Origin: Promethearchaeota archaeon
GTDB taxonomy: Archaea; Asgardarchaeota; Lokiarchaeia; Sigyniarchaeales; SOKP01
Length of the DNA: 64,000 nucleotides
NCBI GenBank assembly: GCA_011364975.1
Contig: RDOE01000002.1
Location: 1 to 64,000 of the forward strand
Direction of reading: 5' to 3'
Positions within the stretch are counted from its first letter, which is position 1. Each line of letters starts with the position of its first letter. The notes beneath the pieces were generated by a model. It was not told the DNA's origin, did no database searches, and saw only the letters and a list, made by a program, of their open reading frames with translations. The translations under genes were made by a program, and so were the position numbers. Positions 35,799 through 43,672 of this stretch are shown here, piece by piece.

Positions 35799-36902
35799 TT
35801 AATAATTTGAAGGAGTCTTTGTTTTAATTTTATATTTTGGGATTTCTCTTACTTTTCTTAATTCTCTTTCAAAATCCTTCTTTTCTTGTAAAAATCTCTC
35901 TTTGTCTCGATCTAATTTCTCTCTTTCTCGTTTAATTATATTTTTTTCACTTTCAATTCGAGATTTTTCATTTTCTAATCGCTTAAATTGATTATTTAAT
36001 TCTTTTAATTTATTTTCTGAATTACGAATTTTATGTTCTAATGAAAAGTAAGTATCTTCAGCTTTAGGAACCTTGTAATTTAATTCCTTTAATTTTGCTT
36101 CTTGTTCTTTTCTCTTTCTTTCGAGGTTCTTTAATTCATCTTCTAGCTTGTCTTTAAATTTCTCTAATTCCGTTTTTTTCTTTTCTACTTCTCGGTTTTT
36201 AAGGTTTAAGTCTTTCTTTTTATATTTTACTCCTCGCTTTTCTTCTTGTAATTTTCTTTTCTCATCTTCAATTCGATTTCTTTCATCAATAATTTCTCTT
36301 TTCAAATCATTAATCTCTTTGTCTAAATTGTCTCTTTCTCTAGTTAGACTTTTTATTTCATTTCTTAACCGCATTAAATCGTTTTCTAGCTTTTCAATAG
36401 TTCGTTCTAATGCTTCCTCTCGTCTCTCCATTCCAGGTATTTTAGTTTTAATTTCCTTTATACGGTTTTGTGCTCCTTCTTTTTCTCTTTCTAATAGTCT
36501 TTTTTCCTCGGTTAAGTTTTCTTTTAATCGCTCTAATTGTTCTTGATATGCTCTTAAGTCTGACTTTTTTTGATTTAACTCTCTTTCTTTTTGATCAATC
36601 TTATTTCTACTCTCATATATTACATTTTTCATCGCATCCATTTCTTGCTTTAACTTCTCGCGCTGATCGAGTAGATCTCTGACTTCAAGTTCTTTTTCTT
36701 TTCTTTTATGTTCTAAATTTTTAATGTTTACTTGATAGTCTTCAAATTTCTTTATAACTCTTTCCCATTCGGTTTTTTCTCTGTTTAATTTAATTCTTTC
36801 TTCCTTAATTTTTTTCAATAATTTCGAATCTGGAATGCTTTCTATACTTTCTTCCGGTGTTTTCTCTCGAATTTGAAACTTTGGAATATTATTATCAGTC
36901 AT
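35799..36902 (-). CDS. Long coiled-coil protein
   Basis: Near-continuous charged heptads over about 300 aa. Confidence 0.85.
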   Translation of the reverse strand: MTDNNIPKFQIREKTPEESIESIPDSKLLKKIKEERIKLNREKTEWERVIKKFEDYQVNIKNLEHKRKEKELEVRDLLDQREKLKQEMDAMKNVIYESRNKIDQKERELNQKKSDLRAYQEQLERLKENLTEEKRLLEREKEGAQNRIKEIKTKIPGMERREEALERTIEKLENDLMRLRNEIKSLTRERDNLDKEINDLKREIIDERNRIEDEKRKLQEEKRGVKYKKKDLNLKNREVEKKKTELEKFKDKLEDELKNLERKRKEQEAKLKELNYKVPKAEDTYFSLEHKIRNSENKLKELNNQFKRLENEKSRIESEKNIIKREREKLDRDKERFLQEKKDFERELRKVREIPKYKIKTKTPSNY

Positions 36903-37077: not shown

Positions 37078-37500
37078 ATGGAATTTGATGAGGAGTTTGA
37101 TGAAGAGTTTGATGAAGAGTTTGATGAGGAGTTTGATGAGGATTTAGATGAAGATCTAGATGAGCAATCATCAGAACCTCCTGGAAAAATTCCAGATGAT
37201 GATGTTAAAACCAAAACCCCTGAACCTAAAGTAATTCAGGAAGGGAAAAAGATTTCAGTCTACTTCATGTCAACTATAGGTCCAGGTGAAAAAAAGCAAA
37301 AACTGTTAATTAACACGGGAAATAAGGTTGGTGATGTAAAAGAAACCGCTGCAAATTTGTTTGGTTTAGATCCTGCTGACTTTCATTTATCCTCGAGTGG
37401 GGTTACGATGGATGAAAATTCAAGCTTAAACGATTATAATATAGCTGATGGAGATGATATTCTTTTGATTCCGGCAAGCACCGCGGGATTAAAATGTTAA
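37078..37500 (+). CDS. Ubiquitin-like protein 1 with acidic repeat N-terminus; tail STAG-LKC
   Basis: Beta-grasp-like KISVYFMSTIGPGEKK...LNDYNIADGDDILLIPASTAGLKC; DYNI matches ubiquitin LSDYNI. Confidence 0.85.
   Translation: MEFDEEFDEEFDEEFDEEFDEDLDEDLDEQSSEPPGKIPDDDVKTKTPEPKVIQEGKKISVYFMSTIGPGEKKQKLLINTGNKVGDVKETAANLFGLDPADFHLSSSGVTMDENSSLNDYNIADGDDILLIPASTAGLKC
37081..37152 (+). repeat. 12-bp microsatellite-like repeat encoding (EFDE)n / acidic tract
   Basis: gagtttgatga(a/g) iterated, degenerating to gatttagatga. Confidence 0.9.
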
Positions 37501-37517
37501 TTAAATTTATAAAATAA

Positions 37518-38339
37518 TTAGCTTTTTCCATTAATTTTTTTTCTGGTAGGAATTAGAGCTAATTCATCATCATCTTCAATATTGTAGTCAATAATTTTTA
37601 AATCATCATCTAACAAGATTCCTCCAGAGGAAATTAGAAAACCATCTGGATTATAATCAAATAAAACACCTATTTTCTGTTTGATTATATTTATCAATTC
37701 CGATGTATCAATTATCATTATTTTCGTTTTCTCACCAGGTTCAATTAATGATCGAACATAAACACGTATTTTCTCATCAATTTCAACAATTCTTTTTGGT
37801 GGGGTATAATTTATAGGATCGTCTGTGACACTTCTGTTTTTTATCATAGTTTCAATTAGTTGAATTCTCTCATCAGGATCGAAGTATAATAATTCTCTAA
37901 TGAAAAAAATTTTATCCATTTTTGAAAGTCCCAATAGGTTTATTTTCTCTAAATCTTCTTTTTTAAATACAGAAAAGATATAGTCATTAATTTTTGGAAT
38001 ATCTTCAAATGATTCATTTGAATCAGCATAACTATCAATTAAAGGATTTGCCTCAAAGTAGTCTTCAATAAATTGATTAGCTAGATTTTTTAATGATTTC
38101 TTTTGAGGTTGATATTTTTGTTGAGGTAGCGCTTTTTTCTTTCCTAAAAACTTATATGAGCTCTCTTTTGACTGAATAATGGTATAAGCAGTACTAGTAG
38201 ATAATACAGCTACACTACTAATAGTTAAAAAGAGATATAAAGGAATACTCTCTACCCTCGAAAGGAACAATATTATATAAATACAAGTTACAACAATGTA
38301 GAGAGTTATTAAACCAAATGCTCTATTTTTATTTCTCAT
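37518..38339 (-). CDS. Two-TM membrane protein with C-terminal ubiquitin-like domain
   Basis: N-terminal TM pair; C-terminal KIRVYVRSLIEPGEKTKIMIID...SSGGILLDDDLKIIDYNIEDDDELALIPTRKK aligns with the two Ubls. Confidence 0.75.
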   Translation of the reverse strand: MRNKNRAFGLITLYIVVTCIYIILFLSRVESIPLYLFLTISSVAVLSTSTAYTIIQSKESSYKFLGKKKALPQQKYQPQKKSLKNLANQFIEDYFEANPLIDSYADSNESFEDIPKINDYIFSVFKKEDLEKINLLGLSKMDKIFFIRELLYFDPDERIQLIETMIKNRSVTDDPINYTPPKRIVEIDEKIRVYVRSLIEPGEKTKIMIIDTSELINIIKQKIGVLFDYNPDGFLISSGGILLDDDLKIIDYNIEDDDELALIPTRKKINGKS

Positions 38340-38420: not shown

Positions 38421-39092
38421 CTACTCACCCACAATAGAGTTCATTATTTTTGTATATTTCTCAGTATCTAATCTAAATAATATTCTTTTATTATCTTTTT
38501 CAACCTTTATAATCCTTAATTTATGAAGAATTTTAAGATACTTTTTAATTGTATTGTAATTCTTCTTTAAATTCTTCGCTAATTGGGTAGCTTTTAAGCT
38601 ATTTTCTTCTTTTAACATAAATTCGATTATTTCTTGGATAATTACTTGTTTTAAATAATAAGATAACTCGTCGTATTCGGGATTTGACTCATAGTGAAAG
38701 ATTATTCTTTGATTATCAATTTTTTTTGATCTAGTAAATCCAAATTTTTCTAAGCAAGATAAATGCCATAATACTTGATTGCTACCAATATTTATCGCTT
38801 TCATAATTTCATTGATATTGGCAGGTTGTTTCTTGATATAATTATAAATTTCATTTCTGATTGGATGTTCGATAATATTATTTTTCATTAATTTAGTTCC
38901 TGGTATTAGGATTCTTTTTTTAATTAGTTTTTTTATAATTTTTTCAATACTATTTTTATTCAAATTTGGGTTAAATTTCACCCTATTATTTATATAAACA
39001 ACAATATCCTCAATTGAAAAAAATGGCTTCTTTTTTAAATACTCCTTTATTAGATCACAAACAATAGCTTGAAGGGTATCAGAAGAGCTCAT
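38421..39092 (-). CDS. winged-HTH transcriptional regulator (tandem wHTH)
   Basis: RNEIYNYIKKQPANINEIMKAINIGSNQVLWHLSCLEKFGF; second wHTH ATQLAKNLKKNYNTIKKYLKILHKLRII. Confidence 0.75.
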   Translation of the reverse strand: MSSSDTLQAIVCDLIKEYLKKKPFFSIEDIVVYINNRVKFNPNLNKNSIEKIIKKLIKKRILIPGTKLMKNNIIEHPIRNEIYNYIKKQPANINEIMKAINIGSNQVLWHLSCLEKFGFTRSKKIDNQRIIFHYESNPEYDELSYYLKQVIIQEIIEFMLKEENSLKATQLAKNLKKNYNTIKKYLKILHKLRIIKVEKDNKRILFRLDTEKYTKIMNSIVGE

Positions 39093-39357
39093 AAACTTTA
39101 ATTTTTTTTTGTTAAAATACCTTGATTTTTAAACTAAATCTTCTTTCTAAACAGTATTTCCAATAATTATATATTAATAAGCCTACACTCAATTTATAAA
39201 TATATTTTCCTAAGAATGCTTTTGAAACTTTAGTACTTATTTGAGAAATTTTTAATATTTCAAATTCATTCCAAATGGTTTTTTAATATCAGATTTGCGT
39301 GTTATTATTAAAAAATAAAATAAAATTAATATTTAAAAATATAAGAATGTGATTTGA

Positions 39358-39690
39358 ATGAGTTTTGACAACGATTTTGATGAAGAATTAGAGCCTGTTA
39401 AATCTAAAACTCCATCAAGTAAAACACCCACAACAGGTAAAAAGTTGACTTTATACTTTATGTCAACTATTGGTCCTGGTGAAAAGAAAGAGAAATTAAC
39501 AGTGAATGACGCTAACCGTGTAAGTGATATCAAACAAACATTAGGAAATTTATTTGGACTCGATCCTGATGAATTTCACCTTTCATCTGGTGGAGTAACT
39601 ATGGATGAAAGTAATCAACTAAAAGATTATAATGTTAATGATGGCGATGATATCCTTCTGATCCCAGCGAGTACTGCGGGATACTTTTAA
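39358..39690 (+). CDS. Ubiquitin-like protein 2; tail STAG-YF
   Basis: LTLYFMSTIGPGEKKEKLTVND...HLSSGGVTMDESNQLKDYNVNDGDDILLIPASTAGYF. Confidence 0.9.
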   Translation: MSFDNDFDEELEPVKSKTPSSKTPTTGKKLTLYFMSTIGPGEKKEKLTVNDANRVSDIKQTLGNLFGLDPDEFHLSSGGVTMDESNQLKDYNVNDGDDILLIPASTAGYF

Positions 39691-39774
39691 ATAATTCTTT
39701 TCATAAAATCTAATATAAGGGCATTAAGCCCTTTAATTTTTTTATTTTTTTGATTAACATTTAAGGTGATAATA

Positions 39775-40998
39775 TTGGATAAGGATTCAGATTTTTTTGC
39801 AAAAGGAATGTCAGCGGAAGAGAGAGATCTGTATGATCGCCAATTTCGTTTAGAAGGATGGTCTCAGAAATTGGTAAAAAACTCGAGAGTCTTAATAGCA
39901 GGTGTTGGTGGATTAGGTTGTGAAATTGCAAAAAATCTAGCGATGTTAGGAGTAGGTCATTTAGATCTTGTTGATTTAGACATTATTGAGCATTCTAATT
40001 TAAATCGTCAAATTTTATTTACAGGCGCTAAGTTAGGGGCACCAAAAGCAATTGTCGCGGCTCAAAAATTAACCGAGATTAATCCAAATATTGTTGTGAA
40101 AGGATATCATTCTTCTTTAGAACGGTTAGACCCTGCTTTATACTATGCTGCTGATGTTATTATTGGAGGCCTTGATTCAATGAATGCCCGCTTGAATTTA
40201 AATGCTCAGTGTATACGCTTTAGAAAGCCGTTTGTAGATGGTGGAGTATCTGGTTATCATGGGCATATGTATTCGATCTTTCCTTATCAAAATGCTTGTT
40301 ATGAATGTAATCCACTTCCAGTATCGGAAAGTGATGAAATGGCGGCCTGTACTGTAGTAGGGGTTCCTCGAAAACGTATTCATTGTCTTTTTAAAGGAGA
40401 TATGGCCTTTAAAGAAAAATTTGATAGAGATCCAAATCCAAAAAATATAACAGATATTGAATTTATTCAAAAAGTTGCAAATGAATTAGTAAATAAACAT
40501 AATTTCTTACCAGAATATACAATAGATGATATTGTTAAAATCATTAATCGCCACGATCCTGGGATCATCACGATTAATGCGGTAATATCTGCTTTAGAAT
40601 CTCATGAGGCTGTTAAAATATTGCATTGGAAAAAAGGTCATAAGGGTTTAGGACACCCTATTGCGAGTTATGTAATATTTAATGCAATGACAATGAAACT
40701 TTATCACATAGAAAAGAAGAGAAATCCAGAATGTTCTCAATGTGGTAAAAATACAAGGCGTGTGGTCATAAAGATGAGAGCTCAATCACCATGTTTGAAT
40801 ATAATTCGAACATTAAAAAAGAATGGGTTTGAATTAGAGCCTGAATTTGAACCAGTTCTAACCCTGCAAGATTATAATGATATCTTGGTTTTAGATTTAG
40901 AGCAGAGTTTGATTGAGAATGGTTTGAGGAATTACGAATTTTTAACTGTTGCAGGGTTTAAGGGTGGAGAAATTTATGTTACCTTAAAATTAATTTAA
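39775..40998 (+). CDS. Ubiquitin-activating E1-like enzyme (UBA3/UBA2-like)
   Basis: DRQFRLEGWSQ; GVGGLGCEIAKNL; LNRQILF; GLDSMNAR; catalytic AACTVVGVPRKRIHC; Zn CYEC/CSQC; C-terminal UFD-like region. TTG start after aaggtgata; GTG 39766 is alternative. Confidence 0.9.
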   Translation: MDKDSDFFAKGMSAEERDLYDRQFRLEGWSQKLVKNSRVLIAGVGGLGCEIAKNLAMLGVGHLDLVDLDIIEHSNLNRQILFTGAKLGAPKAIVAAQKLTEINPNIVVKGYHSSLERLDPALYYAADVIIGGLDSMNARLNLNAQCIRFRKPFVDGGVSGYHGHMYSIFPYQNACYECNPLPVSESDEMAACTVVGVPRKRIHCLFKGDMAFKEKFDRDPNPKNITDIEFIQKVANELVNKHNFLPEYTIDDIVKIINRHDPGIITINAVISALESHEAVKILHWKKGHKGLGHPIASYVIFNAMTMKLYHIEKKRNPECSQCGKNTRRVVIKMRAQSPCLNIIRTLKKNGFELEPEFEPVLTLQDYNDILVLDLEQSLIENGLRNYEFLTVAGFKGGEIYVTLKLI

Positions 40999-41090: not shown

Positions 41091-41618
41091 ATGAGTATAA
41101 GAAGTAGTCGGATTTCTCAAGATTTTGCAGGATTAAAAAAGTTACTCAAGGATGGTACTATTATTCAATTAAAACCTTTTAATCCAAAAAAGAAAAGCAT
41201 TGATCATTTAGCAATTACGCTCAAAGGACCTAAAAATACAGCATATGCAGGAGGCTTGTTTAAATTGGAGATGAGTTTCCCTGCTCAATATCCTAAGCAA
41301 CCACCATTTGTAAGAATGCACACTCCGATATGGCATCCAAATTTTTGGCCAAAACCAAATGAATATAAGGGACAGAGAAATATTTGTTTAGCATTAGTGG
41401 ATCCTTCTTTAGCAGGTAAAAAAGGAGGATGGAGTCCTTCAAAAACTGCTGTCACCATTGTTCAAGCCATAATTGCTATGTTAAATACCAGTGGTAAATA
41501 TGTAAATCCTACTGATGTGTTTAATAAGAAAGCTGCAATGGAAATGATGAAAGATCCAAAGTTTTTCGATAAAAAGGTTAAAAATTTAGTAAAGAAGTAT
41601 GCAAAGGATAAATGGTGA
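41091..41618 (+). CDS. E2 ubiquitin-conjugating (UBC-fold) enzyme
   Basis: FPAQYPKQPPFVRMHTPIWHPN...RNICLALV...GWSPSKT. Confidence 0.92.
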   Translation: MSIRSSRISQDFAGLKKLLKDGTIIQLKPFNPKKKSIDHLAITLKGPKNTAYAGGLFKLEMSFPAQYPKQPPFVRMHTPIWHPNFWPKPNEYKGQRNICLALVDPSLAGKKGGWSPSKTAVTIVQAIIAMLNTSGKYVNPTDVFNKKAAMEMMKDPKFFDKKVKNLVKKYAKDKW

Positions 41619-41624
41619 ATCTAA

Positions 41625-42446
41625 ATGAATGAAGATGATAAGATTAGTATCTCGATTAAGGAAGCAGTTAAGCAAAAAATTAAAGAGAAAATTAAAAAAG
41701 AATTACTTGAAGAGATATATAATGAACTAAAGTTAGAAGAAGAATTAGAGGAAGAAATAACATTTGAGTTAATAGATACCAAACCGTTAGAACACTCAGA
41801 AAGTATTAAGGAAAAACTCGAACCCATTCCTATGGTGCCAGTAAAAACTACCGCTAATAGTGATAAAATTAAAGCACAAATTGTGATAACTGTTAAAGCT
41901 GTTCTAAAGATCGCAAGTCATTCTTTAAAGTACGCTCACTCTAAAATTCCACGAGAAGATTGGGTTGAAGTGATCGGCTTGTTGGCAGGAAAATACGATA
42001 ACGCAAAGGGAGTGTTATATGTTGAAGATGCTTATCCTATGGGTCATGGCACAGCTGTCTACGCAGAGATTAATGTTGAAAGGAATCGAAAGTCTGGTCA
42101 TGAACGAGCGTATGAAGAAATTATCAAAAAGGGGTTATTCATTTGTGGATGGTATCATTCTCATCCTTCCTATGGTTGTTTTATGTCTAGAGAAGATTTA
42201 GGAACTCAAGCACGGTATCAAAAGTTATGGGATAAAGCTATAGCTTTAGTTATAGATCCATATCAAATTAATGGATTATCATTAGGATTTGAAATATATC
42301 GTGCAAATTTTAAAACTAAAAAATGGTTTTCGGTACCTTTTGACATCAAGGGGTACTTAGACGTAAAAATGTTACCTGAGATATTAGACTTTATGAATCC
42401 AATAATTGAGGGAAGAGCAGCCTATTTAGAATATGATGAAGAATAA
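41625..42446 (+). CDS. JAMM/MPN+ metalloprotease, Rpn11-like
   Basis: WVEVIGLLAGKYD; GWYHSHPSYGCFMSREDLGTQARYQ = HxHx7Sx2D; AIALVIDPYQ. Confidence 0.92.
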   Translation: MNEDDKISISIKEAVKQKIKEKIKKELLEEIYNELKLEEELEEEITFELIDTKPLEHSESIKEKLEPIPMVPVKTTANSDKIKAQIVITVKAVLKIASHSLKYAHSKIPREDWVEVIGLLAGKYDNAKGVLYVEDAYPMGHGTAVYAEINVERNRKSGHERAYEEIIKKGLFICGWYHSHPSYGCFMSREDLGTQARYQKLWDKAIALVIDPYQINGLSLGFEIYRANFKTKKWFSVPFDIKGYLDVKMLPEILDFMNPIIEGRAAYLEYDEE

Positions 42447-42475: not shown

Positions 42476-43672
42476 ATGGTAAAAAAGAAGGGAATAGCAA
42501 TAATATTTATTCTATTTCTCCTAATAGGACTTATCCATGGTTTAATTTCAATTTCACTAAATATTTCTTTAACCTGGATATTAATTGGATTGTGGATAAT
42601 AGTTTCCTTAAAAATTATAGAAAATATAAGAAGACATCGCGAGTTTAATTCTCCTCATAATACTGCCTTTTTTGTTGTAATCCCTTTATTCATGGGGATT
42701 TTTTATTCCATTTGGGGGTATTTTACGGGTATTTTTGGAGAAAATCTTATCGAAGGTTCGAATCTTTATTTTAGTGGTTGGAGTCTTATTTTTGGATTTC
42801 CTTATGTAACATATGGTTCCTACTCATTATATCGTTGCTTTAAGAAATATAATGTTATTTATTTTGGGGCAAAATCTATAAAAGCTAAGACTTTTGGATT
42901 TATTTTAGCTTTTGTGGTACTTAGCTTTATTATAACTTATTGGATAATATTTTATTCAATATTTGATTATTTTGAGACAATATTAATACCACTTCATTTG
43001 TCGTTAAATCTTAATCTTTTAATATTATTTATTAGTTCTATTTTAATATTAACTATATTTGGATTTTTTGCTTCACAGAGAACCCTACCTGCATTAACTA
43101 ATGATTATATAGAACAACGAACGAGAAAAATAAATTCTTTAGCGAATGCTTCACCGTCATCTTTGCCCAGAACTCAGAGACGACAAGTAACAAATAGACA
43201 CTCAATCCAAACGCCCTCCAGTAAAACTGAAACTATTGCTTCAAGAACTCGAACTAATTCATCAAGAACTACTCCAACCTCTCAAAGAAAGACTCAAAGG
43301 ACCAAGATAACTTATAAAACGAATTCAACAAGAAAAACCTCTGGAACATCACAAAATCGAGGAAAAAAAATGCGAAATTTAGATATATACAAACCTATAG
43401 CAGCATTACTTTCACCAGAAGATTTTAAATGTATTTTCTGCTTTAAATTACCAAAACTCCCCGAAGATAGAAGTAGAGGTATCATTTTATGCCCAAATTG
43501 TAAATATCCTGCACATGCAGATGAGTTCAAAGATTGGGTAAGAACTTCGAATCTCTGTTCAAGATGCAGTACACCAATTTCCTCTAGCTTCAGAAACAAT
43601 CCTAAAATTATTAGCGTAAAAAATTATATGGTAATTTATAAATACTTTTTAAACAAGAAAAATAAAAAATAG
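42476..43672 (+). CDS. Multi-TM membrane protein with C-terminal RING-like zinc domain, candidate E3
   Basis: Several TM helices, Ser/Thr/Arg-rich linker, CIFC-x16-CPNCKYPAHADEFKDWVRTSNLCSRC. Confidence 0.8.
   Translation: MVKKKGIAIIFILFLLIGLIHGLISISLNISLTWILIGLWIIVSLKIIENIRRHREFNSPHNTAFFVVIPLFMGIFYSIWGYFTGIFGENLIEGSNLYFSGWSLIFGFPYVTYGSYSLYRCFKKYNVIYFGAKSIKAKTFGFILAFVVLSFIITYWIIFYSIFDYFETILIPLHLSLNLNLLILFISSILILTIFGFFASQRTLPALTNDYIEQRTRKINSLANASPSSLPRTQRRQVTNRHSIQTPSSKTETIASRTRTNSSRTTPTSQRKTQRTKITYKTNSTRKTSGTSQNRGKKMRNLDIYKPIAALLSPEDFKCIFCFKLPKLPEDRSRGIILCPNCKYPAHADEFKDWVRTSNLCSRCSTPISSSFRNNPKIISVKNYMVIYKYFLNKKNKK

Follow-up and report, generated by a model that had tools for sequence, protein, structure and literature searches.

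A membrane-anchored ubiquitin-like protein in a ubiquitin cluster

The window analysed here is a stretch of 64,000 nucleotides from a Lokiarchaeon, an archaeon related to the ancestors of eukaryotes. Like the Asgard and Caldiarchaeum ubiquitin clusters, which hold genes for ubiquitin and for E1-like, E2-like, Rpn11/JAMM and RING proteins, it contains a ubiquitin cluster, with the ubiquitin-like (Ubl), E1, E2, JAMM and RING genes in that order (Table 1). To our knowledge, little has been established about what the Asgard ubiquitin system acts on in the cell. The cluster of the window also includes a second Ubl modifier gene, a gene for a winged helix-turn-helix (wHTH) protein, and P0001, the gene that is the subject of this analysis.

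Table 1. Positions in the window of the cluster genes and of the parts of P0001 (residue numbers are those of P0001)
Feature	Position	Strand	Remarks
Coiled-coil protein, cluster border	35799..36902	-	conserved neighbour in relatives
Ubl modifier A	37078..37500	+	ends STAGLKC
P0001, 2TM-tail-Ubl protein	37518..38339	-	273 aa, ATG start; full-length relatives in at least 26 genomes
C-terminal TRKKINGKS, without glycine end	37521..37547	-	most orthologues IPSRKK-type
Ubiquitin-like beta-grasp domain, residues 188-264	37548..37778	-	PF00240; AlphaFold/Foldseek/VIA; monophyletic clade, local support 0.993
Middle 'receptor-tail' domain, residues 83-171	37827..38093	-	helical, acidic; profile matches at surface-protein C-termini
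Basic linker, residues 57-82	38094..38171	-	charge +6.5, positive-inside
TM2, residues ~34-55	38175..38240	-	hydropathy 1.64; helix 33-44, low pLDDT
TM1, residues 8-26	38262..38318	-	Kyte-Doolittle 19-mer hydropathy 2.62; helix 2-26 in AlphaFold model
wHTH (ArsR-like) protein	38421..39092	-	223 aa, charge +18; upstream of P0001, same strand, 81 bp gap; HTH_5 E 2.7e-11
Divergent intergenic region shared by wHTH-P0001 and Ubl-E1-E2-JAMM-RING	39093..39357	.	265 bp; conserved blocks, 19-locus alignment
Ubl modifier B	39358..39690	+	ends STAGYF
E1-like (ThiF)	39766..40998	+	PF00899 E 6e-57
E2-like	41091..41618	+	PF00179 E 3e-25
JAMM protease	41625..42446	+	PF01398 E 6e-14
Multi-TM protein, C-terminal RING-like zinc domain	42476..43672	+	Cys/His pattern by eye; sub-cutoff Zn_ribbon_15, zf-RING_16; conserved in clusters

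An earlier note on this DNA had described P0001 as a membrane-anchored protein with two N-terminal transmembrane (TM) segments. The exact bounds of the open reading frame agree with the position given there, and the strand, which was left unstated, is minus. Kyte-Doolittle hydropathy bore out the anchor, with a strong and clear TM1 and a weaker, moderate TM2 (1.64, compared with 1.5–2.5 in 21 orthologues); C-terminal to TM2 the 19-mer profile had no peak above 1.4. An AlphaFold model built with the 21 orthologues consisted of two N-terminal helices, five helices at residues 83–171 and a beta-grasp at residues 190–264. The N-terminus and the linker following TM2 are both basic, which implies an N-in/C-in topology, with the C-terminal part of the protein, and therefore the Ubl, predicted to face the cytosol. 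The ectodomain is a short loop between the two TMs, a large extracellular domain being absent. We found no family for P0001 in an NCBIfam search and no match in a plasmid search. Absent from the earlier note were the conserved helical domain between the TMs and the Ubl (residues ~83–171) and the linked wHTH gene, both of which are described below.

Counting the window's own, 21 genomes had a full-length relative of P0001, as did five more genomes of genus g8, giving at least 26 genomes that span four genera of one Lokiarchaeia family. Pairwise dN/dS, taken from comparisons with usable dS, was mostly 0.1–0.4 across the TM, tail and Ubl regions, indicating that P0001 is under purifying selection and is therefore not debris. 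P0001 was missing from three genomes (G003, G005 and G009); because the contigs of these genomes break at its expected place, the absence is probably an assembly effect.

The Ubl domain and its C-terminal end

The C-terminal ~85 aa of P0001 had been likened in the earlier note to the Ubls of the cluster, and domain and fold searches upheld the likeness. Residues 195–262 matched PF00240 (E 4.4e-6; 26.8 bits, against a curated Pfam cutoff of 25.4), and the domain is 37% identical to Ubl B over 86 aa. Fold prediction, which the same note had proposed as a check, returned a b-b-a-b-(a)-b grasp (AlphaFold, residues 190–264, block pLDDT 67–86). The top Foldseek matches of this model include Caldiarchaeum ubiquitin and human ubiquitin, and VIA-align against the ubiquitin family gave Z scores of 13–14.4 over 74–82 residues, with ISG15 as the top match (6xa9; Z 14.4, 79 aa, rmsd 1.3 Å). 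With a PF00240 match above the cutoff and a beta-grasp fold, the P0001 Ubl is a ubiquitin superfamily domain.

The divergence of this Ubl from the modifiers, and the lack of a STAG tail that had led to P0001 being read as non-conjugated (it ends IPTRKKINGKS), extend to the orthologues. An -AG end, the equivalent of ubiquitin G75-G76, was found in 0/21 full-length P0001 orthologues, as against 63/63 aligned modifiers, a figure that is partly due to selection since these 63 were chosen by the motif IP[AE]S[TVI]AG. Basic residues, usually SRKK, stand in place of the -AG end in all 21 orthologues. P0001 is thus a non-conjugated Ubl-domain protein, with its Ubl set in a larger chain, conserved, and without the glycine end that characterises a conjugable ubiquitin-like modifier. 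The P0001 Ubls form one clade in a tree (Table 1), and have fixed residues that are specific to them, such as L198, E200, Y229, L235, D257 and A261. Loss of the glycine end would also be expected if P0001 had arisen by accidental fusion of a second copy of a cluster Ubl, which had recently decayed and had no function. However, the retention of P0001 in at least 26 genomes of four genera, its own set of invariant residues and the omega values contradict that reading, which we regard as extremely improbable.

Membrane proteins with Ubl domains of this kind occur in other lineages. HERP and TMUB1/2 are eukaryotic TM proteins with a non-conjugated Ubl domain and, like P0001, have a Ubl without a usable glycine end; unlike P0001, they have another architecture, and are not known to carry a receptor-tail domain or to be paired with a DNA-binding partner. 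EccD, from bacterial type VII secretion, is likewise a membrane protein of prokaryotes whose ubiquitin-like domain is cytosolic and non-conjugated, but its Ubl is N-terminal, it has many TMs, it belongs to a secretion pore, and it is not known to be accompanied by ubiquitin cascade genes.

The receptor-tail domain and its wHTH partner

A profile of P0001 residues 83–175 matched the extreme, cytosolic C-termini of large Lokiarchaeial surface proteins. These have a hydrophobic segment at the N-terminus and an ectodomain, and a single TM lies a short way ahead of the tail. The ectodomain is a beta-propeller in L104 and a NosD/right-handed beta-helix in four others (L080, L081, L086 and L095), and that of L091 has an Ig-like match. 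P0001 fits this class of tail-domain membrane proteins, as defined here, in that its TMs are followed by a helical tail and a homologous wHTH gene adjoins it. Among 148 sampled genomes of the phylum, tail domains at E<=1e-6 were confined to the window's own family. A model of the tail from 44 diverse rows had six helices and a moderate mean pLDDT of 74; at that confidence, no match was found in the PDB with either Foldseek (best E 3.1) or VIA (best Z 3.1). The near-invariant columns of the tail are a K, an F and an E-R pair. One surface protein, L099 (4082-6202), has two tandem tail domains and adjoins its wHTH gene.

The wHTH protein encoded upstream of P0001 matched HTH_5 with 43.6 bits, against a curated cutoff of 22. 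Its NCBIfam matches were of ArsR type and below cutoff, and a search against PDB sequences gave no match. Based on the domain match above the curated cutoff, we class it as an ArsR-like wHTH protein and a predicted regulator. Winged helices are also building blocks of Asgard ESCRT proteins, according to PMC10936438, and in this setting of membrane and ubiquitin the protein could be an ESCRT-II-like winged-helix scaffold instead of a transcription regulator, forming with the tail a structural membrane coat tied to ubiquitin. Yet its matches in the list were to the ArsR/SmtB, TrmB and Lrs14-type DNA-binding families, none of them to ESCRT-II families, and its positive charge is strong, so that a scaffold role appears very unlikely. 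In one genome, the wHTH partner (L020, G020:C58:99128-99779) is split by an in-frame stop or a frameshift, reflecting either assembly error or loss.

Tail and wHTH genes also occur together outside ubiquitin clusters. In the window's own genome, a tail search returned contigs C153 and C105 besides the ubiquitin cluster, and an independent wHTH search returned both among its five matches; the tail and wHTH genes are neighbours on each, with gaps of 17 and 30 bp. Among 50 wHTH homologues (E<=1e-20) from relatives, all outside the ubiquitin cluster, at least 32 have a same-strand tail domain no more than 5 kb away, compared with ~0.5 expected by chance. This count is a lower bound because a broader tail profile found further tails adjoining wHTHs, on G035:C174 and G033:C124. 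Genome G035 also encodes four single polypeptides of 985–1547 aa (L100–L103) in which ectodomain and tail are followed directly by a wHTH, at the position held by the Ubl in P0001. A TM before the tail was called in three of these four fusions, and TM and DNA-binding domain are united in one chain in L100, L101 and L103, as they are in transmembrane transcription regulators (TTRs). From their domain order, L100–L103 are candidate TTRs with a C-terminal wHTH in a Lokiarchaeon. P0001 itself had no match to a DNA-binding domain in the domain search and does not have this one-chain arrangement. TTRs such as ToxR, CadC and archaeal ArnR are membrane proteins with a DNA-binding wHTH output, a description that the single-chain proteins of G035 fit. 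By contrast, the regulator in the window is a separate gene linked by the tail domain, and the membrane half bears a Ubl. The main text of a TTR survey (PMC10269533) makes no mention of Asgard archaea or ubiquitin.

We also compared the divergence of the two partners. Tail and wHTH distances were correlated across 22 pairs (r 0.80; permutation maximum 0.41), and the correlation was 0.67 without the ubiquitin-cluster pairs. The nearest outside relative of both the tail and the wHTH is the same locus, G022:C164 (that of L104), which has the same order, wHTH and then tail protein. Tails are acidic (-1 to -15) and most wHTHs are basic (+3 to +25, with one near 0). The tail-Ubl and wHTH genes were together at every locus examined, and inside the ubiquitin cluster in genera g1, g5 and g8. 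Co-inheritance alone could yield both the adjacency of tail and wHTH genes and the correlation of their distances; the tail-wHTH fusions are stronger evidence of a functional link than is the correlation. In view of the conserved adjacency and of the homologous pairs at other loci, the tightest predicted partner of P0001 is the wHTH gene, through the middle domain.

Cluster layouts and a possible link from membrane to transcription

In genera g1 and g8 and in G035, UblA, P0001 and the wHTH gene are set between the coiled-coil gene and UblB. Eight ubiquitin clusters (in G024, G025, G026, G027, G029, G031, G033 and G054) have no tail-Ubl/wHTH pair; their core is the coiled-coil protein and Ubl-E1-E2-JAMM-RING with a single Ubl, the coiled-coil side being out of view in G024 and G027. 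Since several clusters of the same family (the first seven of these) do without it, the pair is not core machinery. In G034, the pair is accompanied by a Ubl gene and by a RING-domain gene that has no TM part, and E1, E2, JAMM and another Ubl are on a different contig, an arrangement consistent with the pair being tied to Ubl/E3 and not to E1 or JAMM. We rejected a mobile module as an explanation of this P0001-wHTH-Ubl-RING locus. By eye, its TPR, PHP, FtsZ-like and AlaRS-like neighbours are those found to the left of the cluster in the window, and the more likely event is therefore that E1/E2/JAMM were split off or relocated.

These layouts bear on the role suggested for P0001 in the earlier note, in which the Ubl could recruit E1, E2 or RING to the membrane. 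Ubiquitylation would then be concentrated there, and the wHTH would be merely an operon regulator. P0001 does combine a Ubl fold with a membrane anchor and cluster with E1/E2/JAMM/RING, and its Ubl has the PGEK loop, SSGG and DY in common with the modifiers, which could preserve a shared binding surface. However, the equivalents of ubiquitin R72 and L73 are altered, and the pair in G034 stands apart from E1/E2/JAMM. Moreover, the RING-like protein of the cluster has its own N-terminal TM region and, being already membrane-bound, has no obvious need of a recruiter, and recruitment does not account for the middle domain being of the receptor-tail type, which accompanies wHTH genes. The strongest of the new evidence leads in another direction, and we consider recruitment possible but unlikely.

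A Ubl that resembles the cluster modifiers and has no glycine end for conjugation could also act as a permanent, non-removable 'ubiquitin'. Recognised by the proteasome or by UEV/Vps23-like receptors of ESCRT-I, it would serve to sort receptors that bear a tail or to have them degraded, or would act in this way on the wHTH protein in trans. In yeast two-hybrid assays, ubiquitin is bound by Loki UEV proteins, according to PMC9192718 (Hatano 2022), and a tail common to the receptors could permit tail-tail assembly. But no ESCRT gene was noticed in the examined part of the cluster, and many positions of the Ubl differ from the modifiers; such mimicry seems quite unlikely.

The reading we favour, with a probability of about 0.5, is that the ubiquitin cluster acquired a receptor-tail/wHTH pair whose anchor gained a non-conjugable Ubl, and that the two genes are a signalling pair. 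Of the two partners, tail protein and wHTH, P0001 would then be the one at the membrane, in a signalling pair of a kind common in one Lokiarchaeia family. In the cluster pair, loss of the ectodomain would have left a short anchor of two TMs; a copy of the Ubl of the cluster would have been added after the tail, in the place of the wHTH in the single-chain relatives, and would then have lost its conjugation end. The acidic tail at the membrane may bind the basic wHTH and hold, release or present it. The Ubl may be a docking site for the membrane RING protein, E2, JAMM, or ubiquitin-binding ESCRT or proteasome proteins, and would tie both the regulator and the membrane to the ubiquitin machinery; the RING-like protein, too, sits at the membrane. 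The state of the ubiquitin system at the membrane would thereby set the activity of the wHTH, whose target is plausibly the promoter region shared with the Ubl-E1-E2-JAMM-RING operon. More tentatively, and at somewhat less than even odds, the ubiquitin system would have a membrane-to-gene branch in which a tail protein with a non-conjugable Ubl controls a dedicated wHTH of the cluster, as part of a wider, undescribed Lokiarchaeial receptor/regulator family with a new helical tail domain.

A conserved membrane protein of the cluster with a fixed Ubl, in a receptor-like family paired with regulators, is a concrete and testable lead, and hints at a connection between membrane ubiquitin machinery and transcription that predates eukaryotes. 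Apart from this, the tail/wHTH pairs seem to make up a Lokiarchaeia signalling family that is so far unreported. For the Asgard and Caldiarchaeum clusters, neither a membrane-anchored non-conjugable Ubl nor a paired wHTH is mentioned in the available part of PMC9192718 or in the PMC searches. Likewise, no description of a P0001-type protein or of tail/wHTH pairs was found in the parts of PMC9192718, PMC10936438 and PMC10269533 available to us or in open-licence PMC full-text searches.

Within the divergent intergenic region, a 24-bp element at 39259-39282, TTCAAATTCATTCCAAATGGTTTT, precedes the Ubl-E1 operon in conserved form at most of the 19 loci and is a candidate regulatory element. It has only one match elsewhere in the genome, with 3 mismatches, and no recurrence was found at the UblA promoter. 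We therefore dropped the idea of a common operator for the UblA and UblB promoters, and autoregulation is unsupported beyond position because the conserved element is not repeated at UblA. A scan with a sigma-70-type promoter model, which is not apt for archaea, was at chance level.

Other Ubl proteins of these genomes have several features of their own. The modifiers (both of those in the window and L001–L032) end in -STAG, -SVAG or -SIAG, with Ala-Gly instead of Gly-Gly and Pro/Ala at ubiquitin positions 71/72, and often carry an extension of 1–6 aa, which suggests processing, presumably by the JAMM protease. Five larger proteins of 226–579 aa also have a C-terminal Ubl that bears a STAG tail (L119 8270-9160, L120 11119-12849, L121 726-2465, L122 1924-3621 and L123 3557-4237). 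One has a vWA-like region (by eye) and one a zinc-ribbon/coiled-coil region, and most lie near the cluster, in other genera; these are possibly natural Ubl-ended, perhaps conjugable, proteins. A 260-aa zinc-ribbon/coiled-coil protein, L025 (1492-2274; the same as L124, 2619-3401), has a Ubl that ends IPSRVAG and is the branch nearest to the P0001 Ubl clade in the tree. Finally, a K(S/T)KTP motif occurs across relatives both at the C-terminus of the coiled-coil protein (IKTKTPSNY in the window) and in N-terminal linkers of the Ubls (KTKTP, KSKTP), including those of Ubl modifiers A and B, and is a possible shared linear motif.
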